Assembly: GCF_021155765.1 (NCBI RefSeq)
Contig: NC_060109.1
Coordinates: 6,478,001-6,542,000, forward strand
Direction: 5' to 3'
DNA from: Diprion similis
Lineage: Eukaryota; Arthropoda; Insecta; Hymenoptera; Diprionidae
Length of the DNA: 64,000 nt
This document shows positions 24,129 to 60,743 of the stretch, piece by piece. Below the pieces are notes generated by a model, which saw nothing but the letters and a program-made list of their open reading frames with translations, was not told where the DNA came from and did no database searches. The position numbers and the translations under genes are program-made. Position 1 is the stretch's first letter; each line of letters opens with the position of its first letter.

Positions 24129-24608
24129 AGTAGTAGAACAAGGAGAGTTCTGCGTATAGATTCCTGTTACCGACACTTACCGACATTATCCTCAGACTCA
24201 AACCCTTTCCCCGCGATGACGTCACAGTCCGCTGTACCGACCGAAAATCAAAATGGCGCTACCTTTTTATCGATCGAAGGTTTGACCTTACCGACAGTGT
24301 TATCAACCGAAGGTCAAAATCTTGCTGCTTTACCGACCGTTTTATCGACCGAAGGTCAAAATCACGCGGTTTTACCATTAGTCTCGCTGTCATCCCCCCT
24401 ACCGACGGTCGAGGTATAGCGGAGACGCTAACCCTTCTGTTCCCAACGTACCCATCTCAGGAATGTTTCGGTTAACCTTGAGCGGCTTGCAGTCTGATAT
24501 TCAACACCCTACATTCCGCAATTAACAGTTCCGAAAATTGTTTTCGGTAACCCCATATCAACCACCTAACATTCGACAATTAATAGTTCTGAGAATGGCT
24601 GGGGTGAA

Positions 24609-24737
24609 CCACGTGACATTCCGTTCCCACGATATCGAACCACGTGACGTTCTGTTCGGGTCCAAGGTTCGGGGTGTTATCAACCGCGTGACATTCTTAT
24701 CAAAATCCCAAATCCGAAGTGATATCAACCACGTGAC
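24609..24737. repeat. CACGTG-containing subterminal repeats in Polinton A TIR
   Basis: CCACGTGAC or CCGCGTGAC recurs at 24609, 24640, 24684 and 24729, spaced about 31, 44 and 45 bp, followed by A/GTTC. The mirror set lies at about 41360-41510. The outer TIR (24240-24380) also repeats a TTATCGACCGAAGGTC-type word. Confidence 0.75.
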
Positions 24738-24890
24738 GTTCTTTCTCCCCACCAAATACCTCTCCAGGACTCTAATGTAACGAACCTTGTGTTTATGTTT
24801 TGCAAACGGAGAAATGTGATATCGTATGCCAGCCCCCATGTTCACCGAATGACACGACACCACACGCAATAGACACACGTATAGCTCGCT

Positions 24891-24901
24891 CTATAAAAAG
24901 G
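24891..24901 (+). promoter_or_regulatory. TATA box of the truncated PolB copy in the left TIR
   Basis: CTATAAAAAGG, 66 bp before the ATG at 24967. The functional counterpart is on the minus strand at 41204-41214. Confidence 0.65.
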
Positions 24902-25311
24902 ATTACCATTACAGCAAACGATCATTCATGTTTAAACTTGTCAAGAGCACGTGAGAAGTAAGAAAGATGGAATCCGCGAAATGTTTGAAATTGATCAACA
25001 TTATGGAATCTGCGTACAAAATGTTGAAAAAGTCATCGCCAACGGAGATCCAGAAATGGATTAAATTTGGGACGCAAAATATCCAGCTTCTAAACAAAAT
25101 TCTGCGAAAGGCTTCAACGATGGGTGAGAAAACGAAAATTATCACAACCATCGGACTCTTGAAATCGCTGGCGGAAAAATTCGAACGTCTTCGGAGAACG
25201 GGTGACGGTACGCGGAAACAAAGACGAAGCGATCGCGTACACTGGGAAGAATTGGAGTCTGCTTTCGAAGGAAGAATACGAACCGGATCCATCACCAATT
25301 TGAAACATAAA

Positions 25312-26181
25312 GACGTCCGTGACATTGCAATGATCGAAATGACTTGCGTTTTTGCCGATCTTGGTCTTTCGACTTGTTTGGAAGGCCAAAATTACATATC
25401 GAGGTTTTTCAAGCTGAGTGGAAGTTTTCACAGTCCAAACGTGTTTGGATGTAGTGGGAAGTAAAGGATATTCGTACAATTCCCAACTGCGGAAGCTCAT
25501 CGAAATAGGCGGGTCTTTCTCAACGAAATTCAGCAGATCAACTTTTTTCTGATCCGCAAGTTTCAAATACGGTACGAGCCATTCCACTGTATTGATCACA
25601 ATTTTGTATTCCTCCTCTTGACTCTGCACAATCGCGTTCACATCAGTTTCGGATCTCGTTAAAATCAACTCGTGTTTGGCATTGACAACGATCTTGCGGT
25701 AGTCTTCAGCGAAACCCAGTATCGTGCTGAGCGGTATCAATACGTCAAAATTACCCTCGGCATTGGTTAATTTTTTCTTCTCTTCCACGTCAAGCCATCC
25801 TGCGTTCTCCATTAGCCAACTCTGACCAGGGTTCAGAGAAGCGTAACCCTTCATTAGACTTGTCAAGCCAACATTCTTGCTTCTGTCGATCTCAACAGCA
25901 TTAATTTCGTAGCGAATTTCTTCAAATAAATGACAGATGGCGTTGTTTACGAACTGCGTGTTCACAGTCGCTGTTCCATCAGCTTTTAAGAGTCGTCCGT
26001 GGATATGGACCGAACTTTTGCCGGGTCATATGCATAAATCCTGATGCTGAACGGTGATTCGAATTTCATCGCTGTTGTTGAATGTTGACGAGGCGTAAGG
26101 TTTGTGAGCGTGAATTTCGTAATGCACAATGGATTCGTTGAAAATGACCGGTGTTTGAATGTTTAAGATTTCTTCTTCCAT
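25312..26181 (-). pseudogene. MCP: Major capsid protein of Polinton A, C-terminally truncated
   Basis: Same protein as the complete 401-residue capsid of Polinton B (51248-52453): start MEEEIL, then the EIHAHKPY and SSTFNNSDEIRITVQHQD segments. Known Polinton MCPs are double jelly-roll proteins; the family is recognised, the fold is inferred. There is a TGA near 26026 in the N-terminal third. The gene ends abruptly after the residues equivalent to CNITDV of copy B, exactly where the left TIR begins. The C-terminal part (roughly 110-120 residues) is missing, so it cannot make a full capsid subunit. Confidence 0.88.
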
Positions 26182-30449: not shown

Positions 30450-31335
30450 GCCTGCACGCCGGAATTACCCGCGTCGCCGTGTAGACGTGCGCGGCATCGA
30501 CGAGACCTGGCAGGCGGATCTTGTTGATATGATGTCATACGCAGGACAAAACAAAGGCTACAAGTATATGCTCACAGTCATTGATATCTTTTCAAAGTAT
30601 GCGTGGGCTGTACCGATGAGAAGCAAGTCCGTGGATGATGTTACAAAGGCCATGGAATCTGTGCTAACTCAAGGACGTGAACCGAAAAAATTACACGTGG
30701 ATAGAGGAACGGAATTCTACAACTCAAAATTTGAATCTCTTATGTCACGCTATGGAATCAAACTCTACTCCACGTACAGCAATTTGAAGGCTTCGATCTG
30801 TGAACGGTTTAATCGTACGTTGAAAAGTAAAATGTGGAAACGGTTCAGTATGCAAGGAAGCTACAAGTGGCTCGACATCTTATCTGATATAGTATCGGCT
30901 TACAACAACACGAAACACCGAACCATAAGAATGAAACCATCGGATGTCACCGTTGCGAATGAAAGGCTGGTATTACGTCAGTCGTACGGAGGGCTTTGAG
31001 CGGAACCTTCCAAACCGGCAAGGTTCAAAACGGGTGACAAAGTTCGAATCAGCAAGTTCAAAAACGTCTTTGAGAAAGGTTACACTCCGAATTGGACGAC
31101 TGAAATATTCACAATAAGCCAAGTAGAAAATACCAATCCTGTGACGTACAAGCTCAAAGACTATCAAGGTCAACCCATCGCTGGTGGTTTCTACGAACAG
31201 GAGCTCCTCAAGGTGGAACTTCCGGACATCTATCTGGTGGAGAAGGTGCTTCAGAAGCGGGGAAAAAAATTATACGTCAAGTGGCTAGGTTTTGACAATA
31301 CACACAACAGTTGGACAAATGAATCTGATATGTAA
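30409..31335 (+). pseudogene. INT: Retroviral-type integrase with chromodomain, Polinton A
   Basis: DDE integrase core: first Asp in WQADLVDM, second in HVDRGTEFYNSKF, Glu in SICERFNRTLKS. The C-terminal chromodomain (DIYLVEKVLQKRGKKLYVKWLGF, split here as VEKVLQ and YVKWLGF) ends near 31335 and likely steers target choice. The start ATG at 30409 overlaps the fibre-like gene by 41 bp. A single TGA at 30997-30999 replaces the Arg present in Polinton B, separating the catalytic core from the chromodomain. Otherwise all three catalytic residues are present. Confidence 0.9.
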
Positions 31336-34300: not shown

Positions 34301-34799
34301 GCACTGAGCTGAAATGTGGATACGAGCTGGTTATGTTGGGATTTCTGTTGTTAGCTGGGTACAGAGCTGCGGTGACCGACCAAAGGAAGCAATACGAGTC
34401 GTTGTTTGAGATGTTCACCACAGCCTTCTTATCTCTGATGTGTTTCGGCAACGGGGTGTAGGTATACAGACCACCTTGAAGTGGTGTATACTTGTTGATG
34501 TTGACGGCAAGATTGATAATTTCAAGTAACGACCAGCCTGAATCCTTTTCCTGGAAATCTTCCACCTTTGTTAACAAACGGTTTGTTACATTTTCGATGA
34601 ACCATTCGTTAATATCCGTTGTCTGGAGGATGATTTCGTTTCTCGTATTAAAGAATTTGTTCTCTTCTACTGTGTGATCATCCTTCTTTACTTCGAATTT
34701 ACAAGCCAGGATAGCGTTGACTTTTAGGCTCCTGGCTTTCTTCAAAGCGTTTTTCAGTCTTGTCACAGCAAGTAACTTTGCGTCTTCTAGAAACCTCTC

Positions 34800-35134
34800 T
34801 ACGTCTTTATGTTTCAAATTGGTGATGGATCCGGTTCGTATTCTTCCCTCGAAAGCAGACTCCAATTCTTCCCAGTGTACGCGATCGCTTCGTCTTTGTT
34901 TCCGCGTATCGTCACCCGTTCTCCGAAGACGTTTGAATTTTTCCGCCAGCGATTTCAAGAGTCCGATGGTTGTGATAATTTTCGTTTTCTCACCCATCGT
35001 TGAAGCCTTTCGCAGAATTTTGTTTAGAAGCTGGATATTTTGCGTCCTAAATTCAATCCATTTCTGAATCTCCGTTGGCGATGACTTTTTCAACATTTTG
35101 TACGCAGATTCCATAATGTTGATCAATTTCAAAC
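34800..35134 (-). repeat. Inner part of right TIR, Polinton A
   Basis: PolB codons about 8-118; inverted copy of 24982-25316 with four G/A differences. Separated from the outer part (41119-41976) by gypsy 2. At 34800 the PolB frame continues while the left copy switches to the capsid gene. Confidence 0.9.
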
Positions 35135-35537
35135 TGTTAAAGACACAGCGTTAATTTGAATCGCGCGCGTGTTTTCCCAAGATGACGAACGAGTAGAACC
35201 GTGCCAGTCGAAGCGAATGTTCGAGAGTCGAGAGGAGTCGTGTGTGAACGAGAGCCGAGAGTAGAAGTAGAGAGAGTGAGAGAGTAACGAAAAAAAAGTT
35301 AACGAAAGTAAATTTAAGTAAACGCTAATGATAGTGATACTCCGTAACTCAATATATGTAGTTATTGTTGAGCTGTGTTTCGTAATATTTATCGGTCAGA
35401 TTAATAAAGAGGCCATTTTGTTTTCCCGTTAAAACTAACAATGTCACGAGTTTGAATTTCCCTGACAAACCCTCCAAAAATAAAACTAAGAGAGGAAGGT
35501 AAGAAAGGAGAGAAAGGAAAGATAAAAATCAATAACA
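35135..35537 (+). repeat. Left LTR of gypsy 2
   Basis: TGTTAAAGACACAGC...AATCAATAACA, 403 bp. AATAAA near 35403 may be the polyadenylation signal. A purine-rich GAGAGTAGAAG tract occurs at 35200-35290. Confidence 0.95.
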
Positions 35538-35539
35538 AT

Positions 35540-35552
35540 TCAGAAGTGGGAT
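35540..35552 (+). promoter_or_regulatory. Candidate primer-binding site, gypsy 2
   Basis: TCAGAAGTGGGAT, two bases inside the LTR, identical to the site in gypsy 1 although surrounding sequence differs. Confidence 0.5.
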
Positions 35553-35652
35553 AGGCTCATTTTTCCATGTTAGGATAGACTCATTTTTCCATGTTAGGAT
35601 AGACTCATTTTCCGTGTGTGGGAAGATAGACTCATTTTTCCGTGTCGGGATG
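35548..35652 (+). repeat. Leader minisatellite, about 24-bp units
   Basis: GATAGACTCATTTTTCC-type units repeat four to five times (GATAGGCTC, GATAGACTC three times, GATGGACTC) between PBS and gag start, with GTGT-rich spacers. Not found in gypsy 1. Confidence 0.85.
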
Positions 35653-35705
35653 GACTCGTCTTTAAAGACTAGAGCAGTGCGTGAGTGGTCCCGTGTGACG
35701 TATTG

Positions 35706-40526: not shown

Positions 40527-40715
40527 AAAAAAAAAAAAAAAAAAAAAAAGAAGAAGGGTGAATGTTAGAATTTAGTCAATGTAAGTTCCTTGAACCAAAT
40601 GTGTTCCATGTAATTGTATGTACCTGAATGTTTTAATCATATAATTTATTATGTAAGTATGTGCAATAAACTGTATGGCAATAGCTCGAGGACGAGCTAG
40701 AGCAGGAAGGCCGAA

Positions 40716-41118
40716 TGTTAAAGACACAGCGTTAATTTGAATCGCGCGCGTGTTTTCCCAAGATGACGAACGAGTAGAACCGTGCCAGTCGAAGCGAATG
40801 TTCGAGAGTCGAGAGGAGTCGTGTGTGAACGAGAGCCGAGAGTAGAAGTAGAGAGAGTGAGAGAGTAACGAAAAGAAAGTTAACGAAAGTAAATTTAAGT
40901 AAACGCTAATGATAGTGATACTCCGTAACTCAATATATGTAGTTATTGTTGAGCTGTGTTTCGTAATATTTATCGGTCAGATTAATAAAGAGGCCATTTT
41001 GTTTTCCCGTTAAAACTAACAATGTCACGAGTTTGAATTTCCCTGACAAACCCTCCAAAAATAAAACTAAGAGAGGAAGGTAAGAAAGGAGAGAAAGGAA
41101 AGATAAAAATCAATAACA
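40716..41118 (+). repeat. Right LTR of gypsy 2
   Basis: 403 bp, TGTTAAAG...AATAACA, one A/G difference from the left LTR seen near 40875. Preceded by purine-rich GAGCAGGAAGGCCGAA. The internal 3' UTR (40527-40715) opens with an A25-type run. Confidence 0.95.
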
Positions 41119-41976
41119 AAACATTTCGCGGATTCCATCTTTCTTACTTCTCACGTGCTCTTGACAAGTTTAAACATGAATGATCGTTTGCTGTAATGGT
41201 AATCCTTTTTATAGAGCGAGCTATACGTGTGTCTATTGCGTGTGGTGTCGTGTCATTCGGTGAACATGGGGGCTGGCATACGATATCACATTTCTCCGTT
41301 TGCAAAACATAAACACAAGGTTCGTTACATTAGAGTCCTGGAGAGGTATTTGGTGGGGAGAAAGAACGTCACGTGGTTGATATCACTTCGGATTTGGGAT
41401 TTTGATAAGAATGTCACGCGGTTGATAACACCCCGAACCTTGGACCCGAACAGAACGTCACGTGGTTCGATATCGTGGGAACGGAATGTCACGTGGTTCA
41501 CCCCAGCCATTCTCAGAACTATTAATTGTCGAATGTTAGGTGGTTGATATGGGGTTACCGAAAACAATTTTCGGAACTGTTAATTGCGGAATGTAGGGTG
41601 TTGAATATCAGACTGCAAGCCGCTCAAGGTTAACCGAAACATTCCTGAGATGGGTACGTTGGGAACAGAAGGGTTAGCGTCTCCGCTATACCTCGACCGT
41701 CGGTAGGGGGGATGACAGCGAGACCAATGGTAAAGCCGCGTGATTTTAACCTTCGGTCGATAAAACGGTCGGTAAAGCAGCAAGATTTTGAACTTCGGTT
41801 GATAACACTGTCGGTAAGGTCAAACCTTCGATCGATAAAAAGGTAGCGTCATTTTGATCTTCGGTCGGTACAGCGGACTGTGAAGTCATCGCGAGGAAAG
41901 GGTTTGAGTCTGGGGAAAATGTCGGTAAGTGTCGGTAACAGGAATCTATACGCAGAACTCTCCTTGTTCTACTACT
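41119..41976 (-). repeat. Outer part of right TIR, Polinton A
   Basis: Reverse complement of 24129-24986. Contains the PolB ATG (41138), TATA box (41204-41214), CACGTG repeats and the terminal CTACTACT. Confidence 0.92.
41204..41214 (-). promoter_or_regulatory. PolB TATA box
   Basis: CTATAAAAAGG on the minus strand, 66 bp before the PolB ATG at 41138. Confidence 0.65.
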
Positions 41977-41988
41977 GCTCCCCCTTAA

Positions 41989-42145
41989 TACATAACATAT
42001 CATACAATAAATCATGAATTAGATATTATAAAATAAAATACATAACACATCATATGACAAATCATAAATTTTCGTAGATGATTTATTATGTATTTTATCT
42101 TATAATCCATACTTCATGATTTATTATATGATTTGTTACGTATGA
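41989..42145. repeat. AT-rich palindrome
   Basis: Arms 41989-42055 and about 42075-42145 are imperfect inverted copies (AATAAATCATGAA and AAAATACATAA blocks in each). Begins immediately after the palindromic element's TTAA. Probably a foldback MITE in intron 2 of the copy-2 transposase. Confidence 0.65.
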
Positions 42146-42564
42146 AGTCGTATTCAAATGTTACATTTCATGATAAAATACATCCGAACATCGGTCATGA
42201 CGTTATGTCATTTATCACAGAATGATTTTCAATACGGATTACTCGTTAAGAGGTTGGAGTTTGTAACGTAATCGTAACGATACATCAGGTAAAGAATTAT
42301 TATTACACCATTTGAGAATGACTTTCTTTATTATGGTTTACTAAATTCCAGATATTTATAAAAATGCAAAGTAACAATTTTTCCTCAGTATGCCCCGTTA
42401 CGGTAACATTACTAACTCCATCCTCATCTCGTTTTCTATTTTTTTCTCATTGAGTCGTATATAATTTCATTCCCTAATGCATAAAATTGAAATGAAATAT
42501 ATAGCCAATCTTTGCTGCTGGGTGTATTTATGACGTTAGAAGAAGAAAACAACAAAAATCGACC
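42146..42564. other. Gene-free intron sequence
   Basis: AT-rich, no repeat or frame recognised. Part of the expanded intron 2. Confidence 0.5.
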
Positions 42565-44110: not shown

Positions 44111-46243
44111 GCCAGAGGGAACACCGGAGAATTTTTTGCTGCCTAACTTGACAGAGGATCAGATGAAAGTACTGTTATCTATCATTGAAGGTAGTGCCCA
44201 AGAGTTTTCTGAAGATTTTGCTATCCCTGATTCAAGTGATAAGCAAAGAAAACAAATATTGTCTGGTGATCTAACTGCGATTCCCTCGGCCTGGATTGTT
44301 CGTATCATGGTTTCGTACGATATGGGGTTGCCTACTCGGGGAATTGGCAGAGACTATGGTAGACTTAGTGGCTACGGCGCTCTCATTGGCGTTCAATCTG
44401 GCCTGATACTCGATTATGACACAAAGAATCGAAAGTGCAAGCTCTGTGACCTAGGACATCCTCCGAGCGATCATGATTGCCGAAAAAACTTTGAAGGAAG
44501 TGCAAAAAGCATGGAGCCCGCTCTTGCAGCAGACTTAGTTGCTCAGAGCACTATCCTCAAAGAAGCCAGGGTGGGAATTGGAGTCCTCGTTGGAGATGAT
44601 GACAGCTCAACCATCTCCGCAGTTCGTCAAGCATGCAGCCATCAAATAATAAAATATTCTGACACCAACCACGCCTCAAAAAATGTGAAAAAAGCACTAT
44701 ACAATATGAGTAAAAATCACCGTGAATTAAAACAAAAAGCTATTGAAAATTTACACAGATGTTTTACATATGCAGTTGCCCAGAACAAAAATGATAAAGA
44801 TGCCATGGAAAGGACGATGAGGCAAATAGTGGATCACTCTTTTAATAAGCACGAGCACTGTGCGATTTTGGAAAAGACAGAGAAAATTACCACCATTCAA
44901 CAATATTCAACCTGGCGGTCTGAATGATTTGGCGTTATATGAAGATTTGTCGAAACTTTTTAACAAATTAGCAGATAACGTGAACAAATTCGTCACTGCA
45001 AGCTCGAGTCAGCCTAATGAGAACTTGAATGCCATGGTTGTCAACAAGGCTCCCAAGTCACGATGCTGCAGCTTGACACCTTCATTATCGATTTGACGTC
45101 ACTGTTGCGAGTAAAAATCTGGGAGACCGGTTCATAATTGAATTACTGCTGGAATTAAACATGGTACCTGGCCCTTATACAACTGCATACGTAAATGGAC
45201 GAGAAAAACTTGCCAAAATTCGTCGACAAAAAACAGCAACAGTGGCATTCAAAGCTCGACGCAATATTTAAAAAAAGTGCAGAACAATTTTGCGAAAAAA
45301 AAAGAAAAATTTGAAGGTAAAACGTATGAATTCGGTATGGGTTTATTGAACTACACTGCTGCTGGCGATACGATCGAGCCAGCACTAGAGCACAACGATA
45401 ACAAAAACGCAACTCTGAAAGATTATGAACCCCCACAGATTGTGTTTTTTGATCTCGAAACAACGGGATTCGGTAGTTCTGCTGAAATTTTGCAAAGCGA
45501 GGTCCACGGCCTCACAGGTGATTGTGGCGAATTATTTTATTACGGCAAGAGAGTGAAAACGCTGCCACTGAATTGCGGAATGCGCGAATTTTTTGAATTT
45601 TTTTGTTCGTTTGGCAAGCCTTGTTTACTCGTTGCACATAATTGCAATTTCGATAAACCTCACCTAATTAGAGCCATTGGTGAAACAGGCATGATGCCAC
45701 AATTTAAAAAAATTGTATTCGGTTTCAGCGACACGCTTCCCATTTTTCGCGGTTTATTCAACAGGCACAACAGAACGAGTCAAGTGGATTTAGCTAACGA
45801 ATTTTTGAATGTGTCGACAAACGAAGCGCACAATGCAATTACAGATGTGCAAATATTAGAAAAACTAGTCAAATATTTTAACATAGCTGATAATACTTTC
45901 ATTGAGAAAACTCATAGCAATCAAGCTTTTTTCCTTGACAAAGAAAAAAAAACGGAATGCTATGCTAGTAGCAACAACGTTATGACCACTACAGAATGTT
46001 ATTTCAAAGATTATGTGTGATAAATTTATACAGGCTTCTATCACATATGATAAGCTGATTGATGTATTTATGGATGGAGGGGAACCAGGTGTTGTTATGC
46101 TTTTATCCAAATTAGTCGATGGAAAACCTCAAGTAACAAAAGATATGAGAACGATAAATAATATAATTCATTTTTTGGAGAGTATTGTTAGTTTTATAGG
46201 TTCCGAGAGTACAGAAAATATTGATATCAATAACAAGGAATAA

Positions 46244-49062: not shown

Positions 49063-49620
49063 ATAAATTGCATTCATACAATTCTTCTTACCTCACCTTG
49101 AAGCTGTAACAATTTTTTTGTAACACCCGCCTGGAAAGTTCAATTTTCCTGCGCTGGGCACAGAGCGTGCGTTAATTTATGTCAGTGTTAGGTGATATTC
49201 ATTACCTAATGCCAGGTCGAGCAAAATGGGTGTAACTAGCACCATCGGACGAGTTAAGTGGTGACTACGACCGTGTCGGGTGCCTAGAAGCAACGTTTAA
49301 TGGTGACCTTGAACTAATATATTTTCTGTAGTCGAACTTTCCATTAAAGGTTGTAACGGGCTTTTTACTTCACCCGGGGGAAAGCGGGGTCGGCACAGAG
49401 GCTCGTTTACAAAAATGGCGTTGACCAACACGGCAGTAGAAAGATGGAAAAGTGATAATTGACGGCACTGCAGGACTGATGTTGCAATGGCAAGCACAAA
49501 AAACAACAGCCGACTAGCTAGCGGTGACGGAAACGTGGGCGCGAAAGTAAAATAGTGTAGTTGATAATCAAATGATTATAGATGTAATGACCAGCATTTA
49601 TTGACAAAAGAGCCGTTACG
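49063..49620. other. Gene-free flank of Polinton B
   Basis: No gene recognised. Ends with the GTTACG target duplication at 49615-49620. Confidence 0.5.
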
Positions 49621-50789
49621 AGTAACAATACAAGGGGGGTTCTGCGCCACGCATCCTACTTTACCGGCGAAGCACCCTCCCCCCGAAGCCGCCCAGTCCG
49701 GACGCAAACCCATCAAGGTTATCCCCACTCCGGCGAGCCGTCAGCGTTCTGCGTTACCATCACTTTGAGTTTTGTCGGTAAGGGGTTATCATCGTTTTGA
49801 TCCTTGTCGGTAAGAAGTCCCCTAGATTGGCGTGCCGGTTGGTGAGAAATTCCCTAGATTGACGTGCCGGTCGGTGAGAAATCATGCCGGTCGGTAAGAA
49901 GTGCTGTCAGTTATCATAGAGGTCTTACCCTTACCATGCTTATCCAGCGTGATCGAGCGACTGCATTACCGAGCGCAACCGCGACACTCGACCGTTCAAC
50001 GCCGAACCCTCGCTTCTGGAAGGTTCCATGAGTCAGCTTCTGGAAGATTCTTCCTCCGACGATCGAGAGGTTTCAAAGCGGAAGTCCAACGTTGGGAGGC
50101 TAACGCAATGACACCGACAAGTTACGACTTGACGTCGAGCGGCCCGAGGTCAAAGAATTTCGGTGCGACGTTGAACTCAGGCTAACAAACACTTCTTGGA
50201 ATCGGTGGACAAGTTTCGACTTAACGTCGAGCGGCCCGAGGTCAAAGGATTTCGGTGCGACGTTGAACGTGACGACCCTGAACGAATTCTCGGAATTTCA
50301 GGCTGACAAACAGTTCTCGGAATCGGTCGACGAGTTTCGACTTGACGTCAAAAGGCCTGCGTCCATCGGTTTTCGGTGCAACGTTGAATTCTGGAAGGTT
50401 CCGTAACCGTGAGAAAGATAACCTGCGACCCTGAACCGATTCTCGGAATCTTAGGCAGACAAACAATTCTCGGAATCGTCCGACGAGTCGCGACTTGACG
50501 TCGAGAGGCCTGCGTCCATCGATTTCGGCGCGTCGTTGAATTCTCGAAGGTTCTGAAATTCGTTGACGCTAACTCTTAACTAGCAGGAAAGAGGTTTCAA
50601 ATCCATGGTTGATATTGGTAAAAACTTTTTTTTATTGATAATAAAGAGTACAGTTTTACATGTTTGCTCTTATTCAACGGTATCCTGACCATCAAGCTCC
50701 GGACATTAAGAATTAAGAACTGGTCGAGTAGATGCCAACAGGCTTTTGTATTTCAATAGAAAATTTCGCAGTAACAATACGTTTTGAGC
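49621..50789 (+). repeat. Left TIR of Polinton B
   Basis: Pairs with 57406-58561. The inner 687 bp (50103-50789) match 57406-58092 with one difference seen by eye and no gap. The outer 482 bp are clearly diverged with indels. The inner edge lies 84 bp inside the exonuclease-like ORF. Confidence 0.93.
50125..50570. repeat. Subterminal GACGTC-containing repeats
   Basis: Units holding CTTGACGTCGAG (or CTTAACGTCGAG, CTTGACGTCAAA) followed by GGCC...TTTCGGTGCGACGTTGAA start near 50129, 50220, 50340 and 50492. The mirror set lies at 57620-58080. Confidence 0.8.
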
Positions 50790-51206
50790 AGCACAGTTTG
50801 GATGTGATATAGAGTGATGTGTACAGTTCAATTTAGTATGTGACATTTTGTTCAATTTTTGATCGACAACTTCAACGTTTTTGCCTAGAACTTTCTGCAG
50901 CCAAATCTTCTTCTCCAATCCTGTTACGTAAACCGTTGACGCGTCACGCAGCGACACGCATTCGACGGTGAAATTAAGCTTCTCGAGAGGTACATCATCA
51001 CCTTCCCAAGATAACCCGTGATAATTCCGTGACAGCCACAAATTTTCGCTCTTAAACGGAGCGAGTAAAGAATTCCAATCGTACGGCGGTTGGAAGAGAA
51101 AAATTGACGGGTTAGTTTCTTCGTTGACTAATATAACTGCCAACTCTTTTGGCGTAAAACCAGGGCCTGGTCTGTTGAATCCTTGCACGTCAACTATGAA
51201 CTCCAT
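50706..51206 (-). CDS. Conserved Polinton ORF, exonuclease-like fold suspected
   Basis: 166 residues from ATG 51206. FIVDVQGF...KELAVI resembles exonuclease motif I with Gln replacing the catalytic Glu. VYVTGLEKKIWLQKVLG occupies the motif II position, and a C-terminal HPNCAAQNVLLL resembles motif III. That layout suggests a degenerate DEDDh/RNase H-like domain that lost catalysis; this is inference. I recognise the protein as frequent in insect Polintons but know no function. It starts 42 bp after the capsid stop on the same strand. Its last 27 or so codons lie inside the TIR and are therefore duplicated at the right end. Confidence 0.65.
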   Translation of the reverse strand: MEFIVDVQGFNRPGPGFTPKELAVILVNEETNPSIFLFQPPYDWNSLLAPFKSENLWLSRNYHGLSWEGDDVPLEKLNFTVECVSLRDASTVYVTGLEKKIWLQKVLGKNVEVVDQKLNKMSHTKLNCTHHSISHPNCAAQNVLLLRNFLLKYKSLLASTRPVLNS

Positions 51207-51247
51207 CGTGAATAAGACTGAATCGAAAATCGCAGCCTTCAAGGTTT

Positions 51248-52453
51248 TTATACCAATTTTCTCACCCCACCACTCAGCTGATTATACTCGATTATACGAT
51301 CGTGTAAAATTAAGCAATAGGCAGATGTACCGGCGGGAAAGTTATTTATAGCCTCAAATTCGATACGAATGTCAACCGGTCCAGATTTCAGAGCCTCGTT
51401 TTGTTTCGAACAGTCGATGAATATCAGAGGTTCGTACTGTAGAGATTCGCTCTTTGTCAACAAAGGTTCGGGTTCCTTGCCGTAGTACGTAGCCTGGAGG
51501 TTGGCATACATCTCGTACAGCAGTGTGAAGCGATTATGACTCATGTCCAGGTTCAGGTTACCGTACGGATAATAATCGGAATTCAAGAAGAGCTTGACGT
51601 CGGTGATGTTACAGTGATCAAGATGGCTGGCATTTTTGTCGGCTTCGTTTTTTCGATTCGTTTGAAAACCGAGAATAACGAATCGCGGTTTCTCCAAATG
51701 AGTGGACGTTTTTACAGTCCACACGTGTTTCGTGGTTGCCGGTAGCAGAGGATATTCGTACATCTCCCAACTGTGGAAGCTCATGGAGACAGGTGTATCT
51801 TTCTCGATGAAATTCAACAGAGCAATTTTTCGTTGTTCCGAAAGCTTCACGTACGGTACTAACCATTCCACTTGATCGATCACGACTCGAAAGTCTTCGT
51901 CTTGATTTTGAACAATGGCATTTGAATCGCTCTTTGATCTTGTGAGAATCAGCTCATGCTTCGCGTTGACGATGATCTTGCGACAGTCTTCGGCAAAGCC
52001 CAATATCATGCTCAAGAGAATAACCACATCGAAGTTACCATCGGCGTCAGTTAATTTTTTCGTTTCTCGAACATCGAGCCACCCAACGTTTTCCATAAGC
52101 CAACTCTGACCAGGGTCTGCCTTCAGCAGACTGGTTAGACCAACGTTTTTGCATTTGTCAATCTCTACAGCGTTTAGCTCGTACCGTACGTCTTTGAACA
52201 GATGGCATATGGCATTGTTGACCAGGGTTGTAACCGCTGCTGGACAACCATCTGATTTTACCAATTTTCCCGAGATATGCAGTGAACTCTTGCTTGGTAA
52301 TATGTATAAATCCTGATGCTGAACGGTGATGCGAATCTCGTCGCTGTTGTTAAAAGTTGATGACGAATACGGCTTGTGTGCATGTATTTCTTGGTAAGCG
52401 ATCGACTCATCGAAGGCGACGTGTGTTTGAATGCTCAAGATTTCCTCCTCCAT
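51248..52453 (-). CDS. MCP: Major capsid protein, Polinton B
   Basis: 401 residues, uninterrupted, start MEEEIL (an in-frame upstream extension lacks ATG). Conserved blocks: EIHAHKPYSSSTFNNSDEI, GQSWLMENVGWLDV, SMSFHSWEMYEYPLLP, and a C-terminal LILHDRIIEYNQLSGGVRK. It matches the insect Polinton double jelly-roll capsid family. Forms the hexons of a presumed virion. Gene order with the penton and protease is as in Polinton A. The segment missing from A corresponds to everything after CNITDV. Confidence 0.9.
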   Translation of the reverse strand: MEEEILSIQTHVAFDESIAYQEIHAHKPYSSSTFNNSDEIRITVQHQDLYILPSKSSLHISGKLVKSDGCPAAVTTLVNNAICHLFKDVRYELNAVEIDKCKNVGLTSLLKADPGQSWLMENVGWLDVRETKKLTDADGNFDVVILLSMILGFAEDCRKIIVNAKHELILTRSKSDSNAIVQNQDEDFRVVIDQVEWLVPYVKLSEQRKIALLNFIEKDTPVSMSFHSWEMYEYPLLPATTKHVWTVKTSTHLEKPRFVILGFQTNRKNEADKNASHLDHCNITDVKLFLNSDYYPYGNLNLDMSHNRFTLLYEMYANLQATYYGKEPEPLLTKSESLQYEPLIFIDCSKQNEALKSGPVDIRIEFEAINNFPAGTSAYCLILHDRIIEYNQLSGGVRKLV

Positions 52454-52667
52454 GGTACGTAGCAGACAACGAAACAGCAGAACCGTAGTTTTATTAGTTG
52501 GAAATTCCTCTTCCAAGAGGTGTCACTTTTAGAACCAGAGCTATCAGGAACTCCACGTTTTGACGTGTTAACGGTTTGGGAATCGATCGATGACTGACTT
52601 GATCGGGACATGCCGCCTTAATAATATAACTCTTGTTGGGTAATCTGTTATATACAATACCCATATT

Positions 52668-53354
52668 TCATTGCGATTTGATGTGCAGTCTCACAGTTAT
52701 AACTTCTCCGCGAAAATTAACCAAGTCTCCGTCTTGATCTACTAACCGAAGCTGTATGTGATCTATGGTCTTTACGGTGATCGGAAGATAAATTACGTGC
52801 GACGGCACTTCCATGATCTTATATTCCGGTGGAACGATGGGGAAAAATTTGTGAATAGTATGAACTTTGCGCTCATTGACGTAGGCACCCGTTGTGATGC
52901 TACATTCGACTCGAAACGCGTTGACCTTGAGCATAGCTACATGCATATCCGATTGGTGAGTTTGGTTAGCCGTCAATACACGCGGTGTGAATCCAAGAAG
53001 CTGACCAATAGAATTACTAGGCTCAAAATTCACGACGCGGTTACATTTGATTTCGCTGCGCAACGTATTATTGTTAGGCTTGATGCTGATTTCAATGTCT
53101 GTATTCTTCACAGCGTCTTGAACATACTTTTCGATATCCTTCATTTCATAGCTGCCAGTAGATATGGTGACTACCTTATCGCCTATGTACAATTTATTGT
53201 GGCCAGCGTCAACGTTGGGAATGGAATTGAAGGTTAACAATCGAACGAGACCGAAAGTGTAATTTTTGTCTGAAGCAAGTTTGATCGGGGTGAAATATTG
53301 CGCTTCGAGAATCGAAGATGTTCCCGATATCGTTAACGTAAACGAATCATCCAT
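52668..53354 (-). CDS. Penton (minor capsid) protein, Polinton B
   Basis: 228 residues from MDDSFTL, same length as the A copy and uninterrupted: LTISGTSSILEAQYF, LTFNSIPNVDAGHNKLY, LRLVDQDGDLVNF. The start is set by alignment with A; an upstream in-frame TTG is not used. Vertex protein role known for the family. Confidence 0.88.
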   Translation of the reverse strand: MDDSFTLTISGTSSILEAQYFTPIKLASDKNYTFGLVRLLTFNSIPNVDAGHNKLYIGDKVVTISTGSYEMKDIEKYVQDAVKNTDIEISIKPNNNTLRSEIKCNRVVNFEPSNSIGQLLGFTPRVLTANQTHQSDMHVAMLKVNAFRVECSITTGAYVNERKVHTIHKFFPIVPPEYKIMEVPSHVIYLPITVKTIDHIQLRLVDQDGDLVNFRGEVITVRLHIKSQ

Positions 53355-53384
53355 GGCTGCAAGTGTTAGACTGCCTTCACTCAA

Positions 53385-53774
53385 TTATGTACGACGTTTA
53401 TATAGCTCATCGCTCAGAAATTTCATACACAAGTGTCCGCAATCGAACGTACCGTAATCTTGATATCTTTCCTCGTTATACTTTACGCTACGTACACTGA
53501 GATATTGCACGAGGTCCAACAGAGGTTGAAGATGACCAAAACTGTCGAAATAGATGAAATCGTTGCCACGTTCTTTATACGCAACCCAGTGTGTCCCAGG
53601 GCCGTCTTTGCCGTCAAGATTGACGACGGCTTCCTCGTTTTTACGCGGCCCGTTTTTGGACATTTCGTTTCGCATGAAGACACCTCGGAAATATGGAATT
53701 TTCATAAGTTTCGCATATTTCAACAAATCCCAATTGGTTAATGCTCGGCGTGGTAGGGTCACATTGAGTTTCTT
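53385..53774 (-). CDS. PRO: Adenain-like cysteine protease, Polinton B
   Basis: Complete frame with GTHWVAY (His), YFDSFG (Asp) and FDCGHLCMKF (Cys). About 125 residues, short but like other insect Polinton proteases. As in A there is no ATG at the 5' edge: the frame emerges in -1 phase from the end of the phospholipase gene, and LPRRALT-WDLLKYAK is shared with A upstream of the first Met. Capsid maturation role by family. Confidence 0.85.
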   Translation of the reverse strand, partial: KKLNVTLPRRALTNWDLLKYAKLMKIPYFRGVFMRNEMSKNGPRKNEEAVVNLDGKDGPGTHWVAYKERGNDFIYFDSFGHLQPLLDLVQYLSVRSVKYNEERYQDYGTFDCGHLCMKFLSDELYKRRT

Positions 53775-54559
53775 GAAAGATGAGGACCAAAACCTTCCTT
53801 GTACGGTTTAAGATGGAGACCTTTACCTAATGCGATCGCTTCCATTGTTTTGTTTTGCCGTTGACTTTCCTCTAATTCTCGTTTAGCCGCGCTCGCATCG
53901 TTAACAGCTTTTGCTATACCCGCAGCACCTCCCGCTAATGCACCCGTAGCGCTTACACCAGCAAAAATAGGTATGAGAAAAGGTAGAAATCCACCAACTT
54001 TTGAGGGGACCGGTAGAATGCGCGGTGATCGCACGTTATGTTTACCGCCTTCTTTTTTCACAGCTTCACGAGCACCTTTCGGTGCAGATTTGATACCTGT
54101 TTTTGCGTTGTGGCTTGGTATCATGGATTGCTTTGCCGCGCGTATGATTTTGTTCAAGGGAACGCTCTTGGGTTTTCGACAACCCATGCCTAACTTTGTT
54201 TTTACCTTCATCGTGTTCGCTACAGCCCAAGCGGTTGCTTTTTCACCTAAATTTGCGTCTTTTGCTAAAACCCGTTTCCAGGTTTTCTCGGCTAATTTTT
54301 TATCCGCGACGTTTCTAGCCTCGAGATTTTCACGATTTTTCGAATATGCTATATCGTGTTCCTTACACGCTGCGTCGAGAGGATTGATACCGGGATCATC
54401 TCTCGCGAGTCTTTTCGCCAACTTTGTACCAGGACCACAGTATTGGTAACCGGGAACATGCAGCTCGATCGGGAGTTTGTTGATAATGCTATTCACCAAT
54501 CCTCTCCCACGTGAGCGTTTTTTCGAGGATCGCTTACGATCGCGTGTGTGCACAATCAT
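53759..54559 (-). CDS. Phospholipase A2-domain protein, Polinton B
   Basis: 266 residues, intact. Basic N-terminus, calcium loop YQYCGPGT, catalytic ACKEHDIAYS with the usual Tyr, Lys/Arg-rich middle, then GGFLPFLIPIFAGVSATGAL hydrophobic segment and charged tail. Ends two codons later than in A because its 3' sequence differs (A AGA AAC instead of A AAA AAC). Confidence 0.87.
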   Translation of the reverse strand: MIVHTRDRKRSSKKRSRGRGLVNSIINKLPIELHVPGYQYCGPGTKLAKRLARDDPGINPLDAACKEHDIAYSKNRENLEARNVADKKLAEKTWKRVLAKDANLGEKATAWAVANTMKVKTKLGMGCRKPKSVPLNKIIRAAKQSMIPSHNAKTGIKSAPKGAREAVKKEGGKHNVRSPRILPVPSKVGGFLPFLIPIFAGVSATGALAGGAAGIAKAVNDASAAKRELEESQRQNKTMEAIALGKGLHLKPYKEGFGPHLSRNSM

Positions 54560-54630
54560 GTTCGCTCTTCGACTGAGGGAAAGTCCTTATAAACGATGCA
54601 TCTATAGAAAATCGAGCAGTCACGTTCGAG
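54560..54630. promoter_or_regulatory. Compact bidirectional promoter, Polinton B
   Basis: 71 bp between divergent starts, with TTATAAA near 54590 and CTATAGAAA near 54602. Same architecture as 28282-28353. Confidence 0.45.
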
Positions 54631-55336
54631 ATGAAGTTTGAGACACAATCGATCAAGCTACCTGTGGTGAACTTTGACAAATATACGCAGCAAAATGAAA
54701 AACCGAACAATCGCCACGGTGAACTGTTACCGAGTAGTGTACGTGCGGTATTTTGTGAACCTTCTAACTGTGGCAAAACCAACGCATTGTTCTCACTTAT
54801 AACGCATCCGAACGGTTTGAGGTTTGAAAACCTGTACGTTCACTTAAAATCTCTCAAATCAACAGAAATACAAGTTTCTCAGTCAAGTGCTTGAAAGCGT
54901 CGACGGTGTTGAATACTTCCCCTTAAACGAGCATGAGCACGTCATCGCACCGAACGAGACGCAACCTAACTCAATCATGATATTCGATGACGTAGCGTGC
55001 GAGAAGCAGGACAACGTACGCGCATACTTTTGTATAGGTAGACATCATGACGTAGACTGTTTCTATCTTTGTCAGACGTACGCGCGGATCCCCAAGCATC
55101 TCGTACGCGATAACACTAACCTGCTGGTCTTATTCAAACAAGACGAAATGAACCTGAGACACGTATACAACGATCACGTAAACAACGATATGACGTACAC
55201 AGAGTTTAAAGACTTGTGTGTGGCATGCTGGAACGGTGACAAATATGGGTTCCTTGTGATCGATAAGGATCGAGAGCTCGACAACGGTCGATATAGGAAG
55301 GGATTCGACAATTTTATGAACATGACAATGAAATAA
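54631..55336 (+). pseudogene. ATP: Packaging ATPase, Polinton B
   Basis: Walker A reads EPSNCGKT (first Gly lost compared with A), Walker B IMIFDD, C-terminal CQTYARIPKHLVRDN. A small indel near 54870-54895 shifts frame between them. Non-functional as it stands. Confidence 0.87.
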
Positions 55337-55393
55337 AGTACACGGTCATCGAGGGGAACGAAACAGTAGCGTTGCTGAGCTAGTTGTGTCAAC

Positions 55394-56302
55394 ATGCAGG
55401 AAATTCGGAAGGAAAATGAAGTCTTGCGCCGTATTGCTCAAGCCAGTAATGCAATTCGACGGAAGCATAAAATCCTCAAGACGGGAAAAGAGTCGCTGCA
55501 GGAAACAATAGAGGAAGTCTTCAAACCTGTGGTAACCCCGCTGCAGGCATTAGTCAACGTCTCTCGAGACGCGAAACCTGTAAAGCAGGACGTGAAGGAA
55601 AAAATCAAAACTGAAACGATGAATAAACCGAAGAACGAAATGGAATCTGAAGCTGAAGATTCTTTTGCAACTGCAGAGGAAGAGGATCAAACAATCACAG
55701 AGTCATCCGCAGGATGAGAAGATGAATATCTTAGAACGCTCGAGGATAAAAACAGACAGAACGAGCTGGATACTTTATACGGGGTACGGAACCTTTCTAC
55801 CGCCGGGCTGATGATTGGTAACTCACCGATAAGCTTCGAGCGCAATTTCATTCGCATAGGGAGTACAGTGTACCCGAAAACTCAAGGTCTGCTGGAGTTG
55901 TTGTTCAAGAAGATGCCGAACAGCGTTCACGTCGCCCCCAACGACAAGAAGAATTACAAGAACATCCTTCTCGCAACAAATGCTCACAGAAAGTATTACA
56001 GCGCCACCGAGCCTATCCGAAACACCCCCTGCGCCAAATTCAAGCACCTAATTGCAGAGCTGCTTGACATCAATACATCATCACCATCGTCATCGAAGCG
56101 TACGGGCGAAGGTGTTTTGCTACCTCAGGCTTGGGTTACACGACAGGGTGTTAGAACAGATTATATTTTCTGGGACGACGCAAACGAGTTGGTGGAACGT
56201 CTTCGTTTGCTGACGGCATCTCAAGCGGCTGGGAATACAAGTCACAACAACGAAATTATGTCGATTCTCCAAGAATTGCGGGAAGCCGGAATCATCTATT
56301 GA
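55394..56302 (+). pseudogene. Conserved Polinton ORF, unknown function, one stop
   Basis: Same protein as 29115-30014. A single in-frame TGA at 55715-55717 in the acidic linker separates the helical N-terminus from the conserved domain (WVTRQGVRTDYIFWDDANEL). Reading frame is otherwise continuous. Confidence 0.75.
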
Positions 56303-56335
56303 TCAACTCACGCCGTTTCTGCAATCATTTACGAG

Positions 56336-56737
56336 ATGAGCGTCGACGTGTTTGGATGTCAGCTGAACAAAAACACAGCTGCGAGCACTGGAGGTCCTCC
56401 GAGTGTCGGATTTCACGTAACAGCGGACGGGCACTACGATATACGCAACAAAAGACTATGCAATATAGCTGACCCCGTGAAGCCAAACAATGCTGTAACT
56501 TTGAAAATCTTTCGTCGTAAATTCCACTTGTTGCAAAAACAACTCGACAATCTTGATCAAATGATCAAAGCATTGGATACCACCTCAGGGAAAGCCTTGG
56601 ACACCTTCTACACAGATTTTAGAACAGGCAGAGACCTGTCGATTCGAAACGCTGAAATTATTTCCAAATTGGATACCAGACTGAGAGCATTGAAAGATGA
56701 ACGGGGAAAAGCTAGCGCTGGTGACAGAACTGCATAA
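56336..56737 (+). CDS. Fibre-like small protein, Polinton B
   Basis: 133 residues, intact, same length as the A copy: GPPSVGFHVTADGHYD then a helical RRKFHLLQKQLDNLDQMIKAL. Overlaps the integrase ATG by 41 bp exactly as in A. Confidence 0.6.
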   Translation: MSVDVFGCQLNKNTAASTGGPPSVGFHVTADGHYDIRNKRLCNIADPVKPNNAVTLKIFRRKFHLLQKQLDNLDQMIKALDTTSGKALDTFYTDFRTGRDLSIRNAEIISKLDTRLRALKDERGKASAGDRTA

Positions 56738-57405
56738 GCCTGCACGCTGGAATTACCCACGTCGTCGTGTAGATGTGCGTGGCATTGACGAGACCTGGCA
56801 GGCGGATCTTGTTGATATGATTTCGTACGCTGGACAAAACAAAGGCTACAAGTACATGCTCACAGTCATTGATACTTTTTCGAAGTACGCGTGGGCTGTA
56901 CCGATAAAGAGCAAGTCCGGGGATTATGTTACAAAGGCGATGGAATCTGTGCTTGTTCAAGGACGTGTACCGAAAAAATTACACGTCAACAGAGGAACGA
57001 AATTTTACAACTTGAAAATTTAGATCTCTTATGACACGCTATGGAGTCAAACTTTACTCCACGTACAGTAATTCAAAGGCTGCGATTTGTGAACGTTTCA
57101 ATCGTACGCTGAAAAGCTAAATGTGGACACAGTTCAGCATGCAAGGAAGCTACAAGTGGCTCGACATCTTATCTGATTTGGTATTGGCTTACAACAACAC
57201 CAAACACCGAACCATACGAATGAAACCATCGGACGTCAGGGTTGTGAACGAGAGGCAATTATTACGTCAGGCGTACGGAGGGCTTCGAGCGATACCTACC
57301 AAACCGACAAAGTTCAGAACTGGCGACAAAGTCTGAATCAGCAAATTCAAAAACGTCTTCGACAAAGTTATACTCCCAATTGGACGACTGAAATATTCAC
57401 TATAA
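56697..57405 (+). pseudogene. INT: Integrase, Polinton B, mutated and 3'-truncated
   Basis: The first catalytic Asp (WQADLVDM) is kept, but the second site reads HVNRGTKFYN (Asp to Asn). Stops are TAG near 57022, TAA near 57118 and TGA near 57335, with an indel near 57367. Sequence matches Polinton A up to CACTATAAGC at 57405, where the inverted TIR copy starts, so the chromodomain is absent. Confidence 0.9.
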
Positions 57406-58561
57406 GCTCAAAACGCATTGTTACTGCGAAATTTTCTGTTGAAATACAAAAGCCTGTTGGCATCTACTCGACCAGTTCTTAATTCTTAATGTCCGGAGCT
57501 TGATGGTCAGGATACCGTTGAATAAGAGCAAACATGTAAAACTGTACTCTTTATTATCAATAAAAAAAAGTTTTTACCAATATCAACCATGGATTTGAAA
57601 CCTCTTTCCTGCTAGTTAAGAGTTAGCGTCAACGAATTTCAGAACCTTCGAGAATTCAACGACGCGCCGAAATCGATGGACGCAGGCCTCTCGACGTCAA
57701 GTCGCGACTCGTCGGACGATTCCGAGAATTGTTTGTCTGCCTAAGATTCCGAGAATCGGTTCAGGGTCGCAGGTTATCTTTCTCACGGTTACGGAACCTT
57801 CCAGAATTCAACGTTGCACCGAAAACCGATGGACGCAGGCCTTTTGACGTCAAGTCGAAACTCGTCGACCGATTCCGAGAACTGTTTGTCAGCCTGAAAT
57901 TCCGAGAATTCGTTCAGGGTCGTCACGTTCAACGTCGCACCGAAATCCTTTGACCTCGGGCCGCTCGACGTTAAGTCGAAACTTGTCCACCGATTCCAAG
58001 AAGTGTTTGTTAGCCTGAGTTCAACGTCGCACCGAAATTCTTTGACCTCGGGCCGCTCGACGTCAAGTCGTAACTTGTCGGTGTCATTGCGTGAGCCTTC
58101 TAACGTCGGACTTTCGCCTCGAAACCTCTCGATCGTCGGAGAACCTTCTCGAAGCTGACTCATGGAACCTTTCAGAAGCTCAACATGCGAGGGTTCGGCG
58201 TTAAACGGTTGAGGGTTCGCGATTGCGCTCGGTAAGGCAGATTCTCGATTCTGCTCGATCACGCTTGATAAGCATGGTAAGGGTAAGATCTACGGTAACT
58301 GACAGAGCACTTCTTACCGACGAAGAACGCTCGAGGGTTAACACTACGTCATTCTTTACCGACGATCGATCGACAGAGCACATCTTACCTTACGAGGGTA
58401 TAATTTGGCGGATTTCTTTGCCGACGAGCGATAGACAGAGCACATCTTACCTTACGAGCGGTGGGGGGGTAACCTTCAAGGGTTTGCGTCTGGAATGCCG
58501 GGAGGGGAGCTTGGCCGGTAAAGTAGGTGTTTGTATCCAGAACCGGCCTTGTATTGCTACT
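57406..58561 (-). repeat. Right TIR of Polinton B
   Basis: Inverted copy of 49621-50789, including the 3' end of the exonuclease-like ORF. The identity step lies at 58092/58093: near-perfect inside, clearly diverged outside. Confidence 0.93.
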
Positions 58562-60743
58562 GTTACGGCAAGGCAAAAGGCTCAGAGAATAAAATATATA
58601 CACGGCAAGCGGTCTTATCGGCGGCGGTACGCTTCGATACAATTCAAAAACAAATAAAAATAAAATCAAATATAACACAGCCACAAAATCAAACAATTTA
58701 ATATAACACGGCAAAAATCAAGCAGTATTACCTAGAAGCGACGAGCGGCAAGCGACCGACTAGGCGAATAATAAGCGACGTAAAATCATTAACAGTTTGA
58801 TAACTCATGCAAGTACAGAATCGTTGTGAAGCAAATTCGTTAACAATTTCAAAACTCAGAACAAGGCAGAACAATTCCAAAAACAAATTCACCAACAATG
58901 TAACAGTTCCACAAATACAAGATAATCCTTCGCTTCTTTTTTATAATATCGGCACGGTCGCCTGTCGCTGCTTGACGGTGGTAGTTACGCTCGGCAACAA
59001 CGGCACGGGCGCACACACTCACTCACAGATTCTCTCTCTCTCTCACACTCACGTACTTGGTACGCGGCCGGGAAGCGGCACGGTACACGATCTATGACAA
59101 GTTACATGTTATGATAACACGGCAGAAAATTACCGAATGAACAACCAGAGCATGTAATATCAAATATAAATTAAGAATAGCAAGTAAAATCAACAACAGA
59201 ATCAAATAGCAAAGCTTAGCTACCACAAGGCTCGCGGGCTTTCATCCAAAATGGCCGACCAAAGCCGGCCGGCAACCTGTTACAAGCGAAAATGGCCTGA
59301 GGCCGTTGAGAATCTATAGCCAGCGAGATTCGGGATAGCGACAGCCTACCTTTTTACGGCAAGAAGTTCCGGTTTTTTTTTCACAAGAAAAAAAACGGCA
59401 GCTACTCGGTACAGTTCTTCCAGTTGGAATCGGCACAAGCTAATACTCAGTACGACGCAATTTCTCGGCGAGAATACTTAGAACAAATCACACTGGGTTT
59501 CTCTACGTTACACCGCTACTCGTAGCTAAGCGCAAGGGAGAGTGAGGTGGCCGCCGGCCCTCGGCGATCGCGATTCCGCGGTGGCGCTACGGGGGGGGGG
59601 GGGGGGGGGGGGGATGATAGGTGGATTTTGGCGATAAACCGGCTGGAGCCTAGGCAGCCGGTCTGTTCACCGCGCTGTGCTGCGGGTTGCCAGGGTGGTC
59701 TGGCTAAGGCGGAATCGTTCGTACGGCATCGGCGTGCCCAGGGGGAGACTGAGTCCAGGTGTTTGTGGGCGCTGGGTGGCAAGGCCGGACTTATCAGAGA
59801 CTCAGGTGCCGGCAACTCGACCCCTGGGCGGCGGCAGCGGTATGTCCTGGGCGGCATCGAGGTTCGAGCAAGCAACAGCGCGACTACTGGGTCCGGGGCT
59901 TCGAACTCCACGCCGGTCGTCCTGTGGTCCCTCCGAGTTTCCCGCGACGGCAGCGCAGGGTGGTCGTTGGATGGCGTCGGCATTGGCGGCGGCAGTGGCG
60001 GTTACCTCAGAGAATGGGTTGGGGGAGTAACAAAAAGCATTAGCAACAATACATAAATCTTAAAGCTAACTCTGGTTGTTCATTGGTGGCACGGCAGGAC
60101 TCTCCCTTGCTTTTTAAGAGCGCTTGACGCGGCCGCCTGGGAGTGGAGGTGCGGGTCGGTGACGGGCTGGTAGACTCGCTACGTCACAAGGTTTTACAAA
60201 AAATAGAATGTATAACTTGTGCGGGTTGGCGATTCTTGACTCGTGCAAATGCTGGCACTCATCTTCGGCTCCTGCGGCATACTTCACACTCATGCGGAAT
60301 AGCCATCTACCCGCACGTGATACACAATATACTATTAGGGCAGAGTGTCATCCCCTTCTTACCGAAAAGTATGGGATAAAGGTGAAACTGGTGTACGAGC
60401 TATTGCAGAGCCACCCAACTAGTCTGTACGTACACTTGGTAGCCAAATTATTATTAAGTGTACCCACTAGATGGCATGAATAATAAGTAACAGGGCTGCG
60501 GCAGAGTCTCACAGAGCTATACCAACAAAGTATAGCTATACAAACAACAAAACGCAGAAACGCGGATTTTCCCAATTAACCTAGACCCTCAAAGATATAC
60601 CTATGCTTGAAGAGTAGTTACTTGCGTAAAGTCACCGAGAAAGCGATTTTTTCGTTTTTTCCCACGGTATACAGCGTCATCAAACATATAGATTCTGAAA
60701 ATAAATAAAAAAAACTGTAACATAAAAATGTAAGAAAAAAGAC
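58562..60743. other. Gene-free; low-complexity G run and CT microsatellite
   Basis: Begins with the GTTACG duplication. (CT)n lies at 59030-59046 and a run of 23 G at 59591-59613 within a GC-rich island (59500-60150). Overlapping long open frames on both strands there are compositional and show no domain. ACGGCA words are frequent; possibly an old LTR region, unproven. Confidence 0.45.

Follow-up and report, generated by a model that had tools for sequence, protein, structure and literature searches.

Adenovirus genomes with inverted terminal duplications are a familiar case of protein-primed, linear, extrachromosomal DNA in which one end is copied to the other; our literature search on adenovirus inverted duplications found no paper. 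Polintons are likewise protein-primed elements. In DNA transposons, interrupted gap repair, reportedly treated by Hsia and Schnable in 1996 (cited in PMC10288884), is said to leave a templated copy on one side and end joining on the other. The element described here, Polinton B in a 64,000-nucleotide window of the Diprion similis genome, also combines a templated copy with end joining, but in interrupted gap repair the gap comes from transposon excision, and Polintons are not known to excise in that manner. In a poxvirus, expansion of the inverted terminal repeat by terminal transposition duplicates an end sequence at the opposite end, with a deletion at the insertion site, and the terminal duplications in virus isolates reach 18,200 bp (PMC10230479). 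This is the closest published parallel; here, in contrast, the copied sequence extends about 0.2-0.6 kb beyond the natural terminal inverted repeat (TIR) and lies in integrated copies. Terminal duplication to the opposite end with a deletion is thus known for a poxvirus, and for Polintons none of the titles and abstract openings listed from open-licence papers describes it or end replacement.

Polinton B occupies positions 49621-58561 of the window, which is C5:6478001-6542000 in a 269-Mb assembly of 60 contigs. Like other Polintons (Mavericks) it has AG...CT ends, long TIRs, a 6-bp target-site duplication (TSD; GTTACG on both sides), a double jelly-roll (DJR) capsid protein, a PLA2-like minor protein and an rve integrase. 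Unlike ordinary Polintons, B has lost PolB and the integrase C-terminus, a second element in the window, Polinton A, has lost the capsid C-terminus, and in each one end is altered by an inverted copy. In both, a terminus was lost and an inverted copy of the other end gives a longer terminal repeat, over the whole arm in A and over the inner part only in B.

The integrase frame of B (NWTTEIFTIS) follows that of Polinton A and diverges at 57405/57406, and the sequence 57406-58092 is the inverse of 50789-50103, with 685 of 687 bases identical. A reading made earlier from the letters of the window (the sequence-only reading) had proposed this cut and fusion, with about 2 bp (GC) shared at the join, and had noted the AG/CT ends and the perfect 6-bp duplication; each of these points was confirmed. 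The relatives mentioned below (C3, C5, C13x and so on) are Polinton copies elsewhere in the same genome, and all 16 read at the integrase point continue with GCC, so the join is derived and belongs to Polinton B itself. A 221-base query across the junction gave one full match genome-wide (best 40 of 143 candidates scored). Likewise, a 28-base junction pattern with up to 3 mismatches allowed gave one match in the genome. The features of Polinton B are as follows.

49615..49620: left TSD, GTTACG
49621..50102 (+): outer left arm, TIR subtype II (GGGGGGTTCTGCGCCACGC...)
50103..50556 (+): inner part of the natural left TIR, the same as in the right arm
50557..50789 (+): left-only subterminal sequence beyond the natural TIR, holding the 3' end of the 178-aa open reading frame (ORF); copied onto the right
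50706..51242 (-): 178-aa ORF, without a Pfam match
51248..52516 (-): DJR major capsid protein, 422 aa, PF21738, E=1.5e-107
53385..53762 (-): protease-like ORF, Peptidase_C5, E=0.053, below the Pfam cut-off
53759..54559 (-): PLA2-like minor capsid-type ORF, PF08398, E=1.9e-12
54887..55336 (+): A32-type packaging ATPase ORF, E=2.6e-4, below the Pfam cut-off
56697..57405 (+): integrase (rve core), PF00665, E=7.1e-10; interrupted, with open frames 56697-57023 and 57177-57405
57405..57406: junction; 2 bp (GC) common to the join and the relatives' continuation
57406..57638 (-): inverted copy of 50789-50557, the left-only sequence
57639..58092 (-): inverted copy of the inner left TIR
58093..58561 (-): outer right arm, TIR subtype III (GGCCGGTTCTGGATAC...), not copied from the left arm
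58562..58567: right TSD, GTTACG

The missing part of B can be measured on its relatives. Beyond the position of the cut, 12 of the 16 have another 215 nt of open integrase frame, and C5 (212 nt), C2b (161 nt), C13a (155 nt) and C13d (44 nt) have less. In C4, the sole relative scanned, this integrase end gives a chromodomain match below the cut-off (E=2.9e-4), in agreement with the proposed loss of the chromodomain. The proposed loss of PolB also holds, since none of the 9 ORFs of B has a Pfam match to a family B DNA polymerase. PolB does occur in the family and in the window; relative C3 has a DNA_pol_B_2 match (PF03175, E=3.5e-28), Polinton A has the domain in two ORFs, and the C3 ORF lies between the integrase point and the right TIR, within the roughly 6.1 kb missing from B. 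The estimate of the loss is based on the spacing between the integrase point and the right TIR, which is about 5.9-6.1 kb in C3, C2a, C5 and C2b and about 2.9 kb in C9. Because the PolB-bearing stretch of the relatives is deleted in B, we file it as a deletion derivative of a Polinton/Maverick, not a complete element. The 178-aa ORF, which had been called exonuclease-like, showed no Pfam match at E up to 0.1, nor did its 198-aa relative, whose best PDB match had E=1; that name is unsupported. In viral contigs no stretch matched six capsid-protein peptide patterns, which detect close relatives only.

The inner edge of the natural TIR, in B coordinates, falls at 50553-50557 in 11 of the 13 relatives measured besides C13x and at 50567 and 50593 in the other two; C8 and C14b give no value, the right TIR being outside the stretch read. 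Compared with these relatives, B has lost about 6 kb and gained 233 bp (50557-50789) of inverted left-only sequence beside its right TIR, and this inverted sequence excludes a simple internal deletion, as had been argued. It is extremely improbable that TIRs of this family naturally vary to include the extension. C13x also carries it on both sides, but C13x is the only one of 16 relatives with the left-only segment on the right (C8 and C14b are an incomplete test) and is itself an inverted duplication. The left-only site has 38 matches in the genome, 36 with the natural neighbour, and the other two are the right-hand copies in B and C13x. Full-length relatives that naturally carry this TIR, the case the sequence-only reading had named against itself, were therefore not found.

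The copy in B does not reach the terminus. Identity between the arms shifts abruptly at 50102/50103, from 72% over the outer 470 bp or so to 685/687 in the inner part; in the outer arms (49622-50102 versus 58561-58093) 321 of 445 aligned bases are identical, with 60 gap columns. The claim that the right end was replaced by the left TIR stands for the inner 687 bp and fails for the outer part. The two edges of the copied tract are unlike, a homologous one at 50102/50103 and one with microhomology at 50789. Block comparison assigns the outer left arm to subtype II and the outer right arm to subtype III. In each block compared, the left arms of C9, C5, C4, C13c and C3b are 90-96% identical to the outer left arm of B, and the closest full-length match of this arm elsewhere is 90% identical (best 40 of 92 candidates scored); the closest match of the outer right arm is 97% over 210 bp (best 40 of 74 candidates scored). 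Neither outer arm has a recent ectopic donor among the candidates scored, and the subtype mixture of B therefore looks old. These data also bear on a different order of events, in which the whole left arm was copied first, insertion followed, and one outer arm was then converted ectopically by another Polinton. The inner tract of B does resemble subtype III left arms (C13a; blocks compared) while its outer left arm is of subtype II, but for want of a near-identical donor such a conversion would be old or its donor would be among the unscored candidates, and we regard this order as quite improbable.

That B kept an outer right arm unlike its left one speaks for repair after integration. We consider that Polinton B was rearranged in place, in the chromosome, by one-sided repair that was started by homology and finished by end joining, with a probability of roughly 0.5. 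A break between the integrase gene and the right terminal repeat of a decayed Polinton B would have left a right-hand end keeping the outer right TIR, which would have paired with the left TIR. This end would have been extended inward on the left-arm template to 233 bp beyond the inner edge of the TIR and then released, and the released end would have been joined to the cut integrase through the 2-bp microhomology, with the loss of about 6 kb in between. Most of the copied tract was probably renewed afterwards by gene conversion between the arms. The sequence itself shows the copied tract, its two unlike edges, the loss and a single copy in the genome search; we infer the break, its polarity, the subsequent conversion and the chromosomal rather than extrachromosomal setting. 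The sequence-only reading took the TSD as a sign that the element was mobilised after gaining its new end, although it did allow repair in place. An in-place event would leave the TSD too, the outermost right end is not derived from the left, and the genome search for the junction, suggested as a proof that the rearranged element transposes, gave the single occurrence reported above; mobilisation after the change is thus not supported.

The tract itself records its template. Both B arms have in common 11 substitutions in the 687 bp that are absent in 20 relatives (with fewer letters in some columns), and therefore one arm of B was the template for the other, either at the event or through later conversion. 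Four of the 11 fall in the left-only extension. One of these is a premature stop in the 178-aa ORF, present on both arms and 12 codons ahead of the C-terminus found in 4 relatives. The two differences between the arms (50757 and 50779) are one derived change per arm. A recent event, dated from the 685/687 match, was considered and dropped because both mismatches sit at the inner edge. In 54860-57405, private changes of B amount to 31 of 1222 sites (2.54%), compared with 0.92-1.98% in five relatives measured likewise. In the capsid gene, compared with three relatives, B has private changes at 26 of 1210 sites, distributed over codon positions as 8/10/8, with no shortage at positions 1 and 2; the values are 4/6/8 in C3, 5/5/4 in C2a and 6/3/12 in C9. 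From these counts Polinton B looks like an old dead copy decaying without constraint.

Polinton A (24129-41976) is flanked by the TSD GCTCCC at 24123-24128 and 41977-41982. It had served as the reference for B, but it is itself rearranged, with the opposite polarity, and it belongs to a different family. Its relevant features are as follows.

24129..25316 (+): left arm, inverted copy of A's own right arm
25312..25316: junction in the capsid gene, 5-bp microhomology GACGT
34801..35134 (-): right arm, inner piece
41119..41976 (-): right arm, outer piece

The left arm of A and the right end that C4 carries naturally share 97.6% identity along 1188 bp; against the natural left side of C4, of which the outermost part was unread, only 249-628 of the 1194-base query match. 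A 501-base junction query gave one full match (best 40 of 158 candidates scored). Among the other 39 scored matches, 32 cover the capsid side only, starting at query positions 200-218 (the joint is at 213-217), and the remaining 7 cover the arm side only (1-217), including A's own right arm. The capsid ORF of A covers only positions 3-216 of the 316 in PF21738. In C4, a 141-aa piece keeps positions 188-316 and is followed by the 198-aa ORF and then by C4's own left TIR. By these comparisons the left end of Polinton A is an inverted copy of its right end, with loss of the capsid C-terminus. A 669-bp patch (24381-25049) is free of differences between the arms of A, whereas the remaining 519 bases have 16 (Fisher p=1.5e-6, post hoc), not counting four at alignment edges, which lie at the element tip and at the inserted retrotransposon. 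This distribution indicates arm-to-arm gene conversion in A.

Several other observations concern Polinton A. A long terminal repeat (LTR) retrotransposon is nested in its right arm (35135-41119), with LTRs of 404 bp at 99.75% identity and an ORF of 1613 aa that matches reverse transcriptase, RNase H, protease and integrase. An endonuclease VII-like domain (PF02945) at the start of the PolB ORF is above the cut-off in A (32986-33795, 1.2e-6) and below it in C3 (L015:767-2704, 3.8e-4). An imperfect self-inverted repeat (77%) lies directly left of A's TSD at 23782-24117, and a similar one lies to the right at 41984-42147.

A third rearranged element, C13x (C13:10892332-10947705), is a 19,580-bp inverted duplication with 5 substitutions and two small gap runs (99.94%) that takes in a Polinton left arm and its flank. 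It shows a copy of the kind found in B, and its outer edge lies within an inverted repeat, which parallels B's edge in the TIR. The copy passes the element end into the flanking chromosome, so a chromosomal version does occur. The edges thus involve the TIR and 2 bp in B, a repeat and 1 bp in C13x, and 5 bp in A, where the other edge is inseparable from the terminus. The most economical route would be one in which a terminal repeat finds its opposite partner, synthesis overruns the repeat, and joining of the newly made end to the remainder completes the change.

The inner edge of C13x falls on the same left-arm base as that of B, just before GCTCAAAACG, within an ambiguity of 1-2 bp from shared bases; its partner point is about 4.8 kb past the integrase point. 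The search that found C13x required the copy to reach into 50675-50789 and left the end point free. By a rough, post hoc estimate, the same base would be met twice in about 1% of cases or less if breakpoints were spread over at least a few hundred bases. No hairpin was detected at this breakpoint, as 50740-50840 folds no better than shuffled sequence (z +1.25 and +0.97 on the two strands; +0.32, +0.09 and -0.35 in three neighbouring control windows on the + strand). About 10 bases from the breakpoint is an 11-base stretch, AGTAACAATAC, that is identical to B's left terminus and matches the usual family terminus at 10 of 11 bases; C13x differs from it by one base. A further reading is recurrent terminal transposition with a preferred left-arm base (50789) near AGTAACAATAC, a stretch resembling the element's own terminus; the arm would have been cut or released there in two diverged copies, perhaps through an element-encoded activity such as the endonuclease VII-like domain by PolB. 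We consider this reading unlikely.

Further candidates for one-end copies were sought by pairing matches on opposite strands, at most 25 kb apart, from lists of end-specific sequence. The left-specific list (38/38 sites) gave B and C13x. The second list gave A and C5:5951509/5965118 (40 of 41 rows; best 40 of 82 candidates scored), and the latter was rejected because its strand order points to two separate elements. No pair was found in the third list (39 of 41 rows; best 40 of 42 candidates scored). The fourth (40/40 rows; best 40 of 49 candidates scored) gave C14:2291068/2309949, rejected because its strand order points to separate elements, and C12:1300954/1306719, a palindromic Polinton-related element with arm pieces that read identical at 601/601 bases. 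Near-perfect arms such as those of C12:1300954/1306719 and C13x could be given by mis-joined haplotypes, and an assembly artefact would then account for the rearrangements. This is very improbable for B, where no shared repeat lies at the join, two sites distinguish the arms with one derived change in each and the outer arms differ by 28%; A and B are, moreover, of different families and opposite polarity.

Several findings weigh against repair of B in the chromosome. Both ends were located in 13 of the 16 relatives (in 3 of 16 one end was not found), with TSD and subtype judged by eye. Seven of the 13 combine a perfect TSD with ends of one subtype. Four lack a TSD, among which the ends match in C9 and are mixed in C2b, C10 and C4, and two have inverted flanks (C13x and C14a); Polinton B alone in this set combines mixed end subtypes with a TSD. 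Nor is B alone in its lack of constraint, as most relatives look similar by the same counts. Both arm differences of B fall within the innermost 33 of 687 bases (chance 0.002 for that end and 0.005 for either end, post hoc). The true age of the junction may therefore far exceed what the tract suggests, and the junction could have formed before insertion; an older junction followed by arm-to-arm conversion of 50103-50756 is probably what the clustering reflects. In A, arms that match to the terminus together with an intact TSD are accounted for at least as well by a change that preceded insertion. Finally, generic repair does not explain the breakpoint common to B and C13x.

These points bear on terminal transposition during extrachromosomal protein-primed replication, in which a broken or displaced strand is completed on the opposite end, one end of the genome is thereby replaced, and the defective genome, helped in trans, integrates with a 6-bp duplication. 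The arms of A, alike to the terminus with similar outer and inner differences beyond the patch (10/252 versus 6/267, Fisher p=0.31), agree with such an origin, as do the old junction allowed by the two mismatches in B and the poxvirus case, which has the same geometry (PMC10230479). The outer right arm of B, however, was not copied from the left, each junction was found once among the scored candidates with no rearranged lineage seen multiplying, and C13x extends far into the flanking chromosome. A fold-back in protein-primed replication, as the sequence-only reading suggested, is possible, but the copying through to the terminus expected of it is not seen in B. We hold an origin in replication only tentatively.

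Other observations were made in the course of the analysis. Several other matches to the A-family left probe stop at position 370-374, perhaps marking a derivative subfamily. A Polinton at C14:2207900-2233500 has inverted flanks (3.2 kb at 96.6%). In the window, two 445-bp direct repeats (15681-16125 and 21085-21529) are 98% identical, 5.4 kb apart and LTR-like, and a 247-aa ORF (45277-46020), outside both Polintons, has an RNase_T exonuclease match just under the cut-off.

Each of the two Polintons examined in the window has a swapped end, the polarity being opposite in the two, and the breakpoint of B recurs in a third element. The status of a Polinton as intact cannot be judged from its ends and TSD alone, since Polinton A looked intact and is not. 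If the rearrangements were chromosomal, long terminal repeats would serve as templates through which a break becomes an inverted duplication, of 19.6 kb in C13x. If they arose at the replication stage, integrated copies would record the mending and swapping of ends of a protein-primed element and would link Polintons to the terminal transpositions of poxviruses. If the preferred-breakpoint reading were true, replacing an end would belong to the normal biology of Polintons, as in poxviruses.

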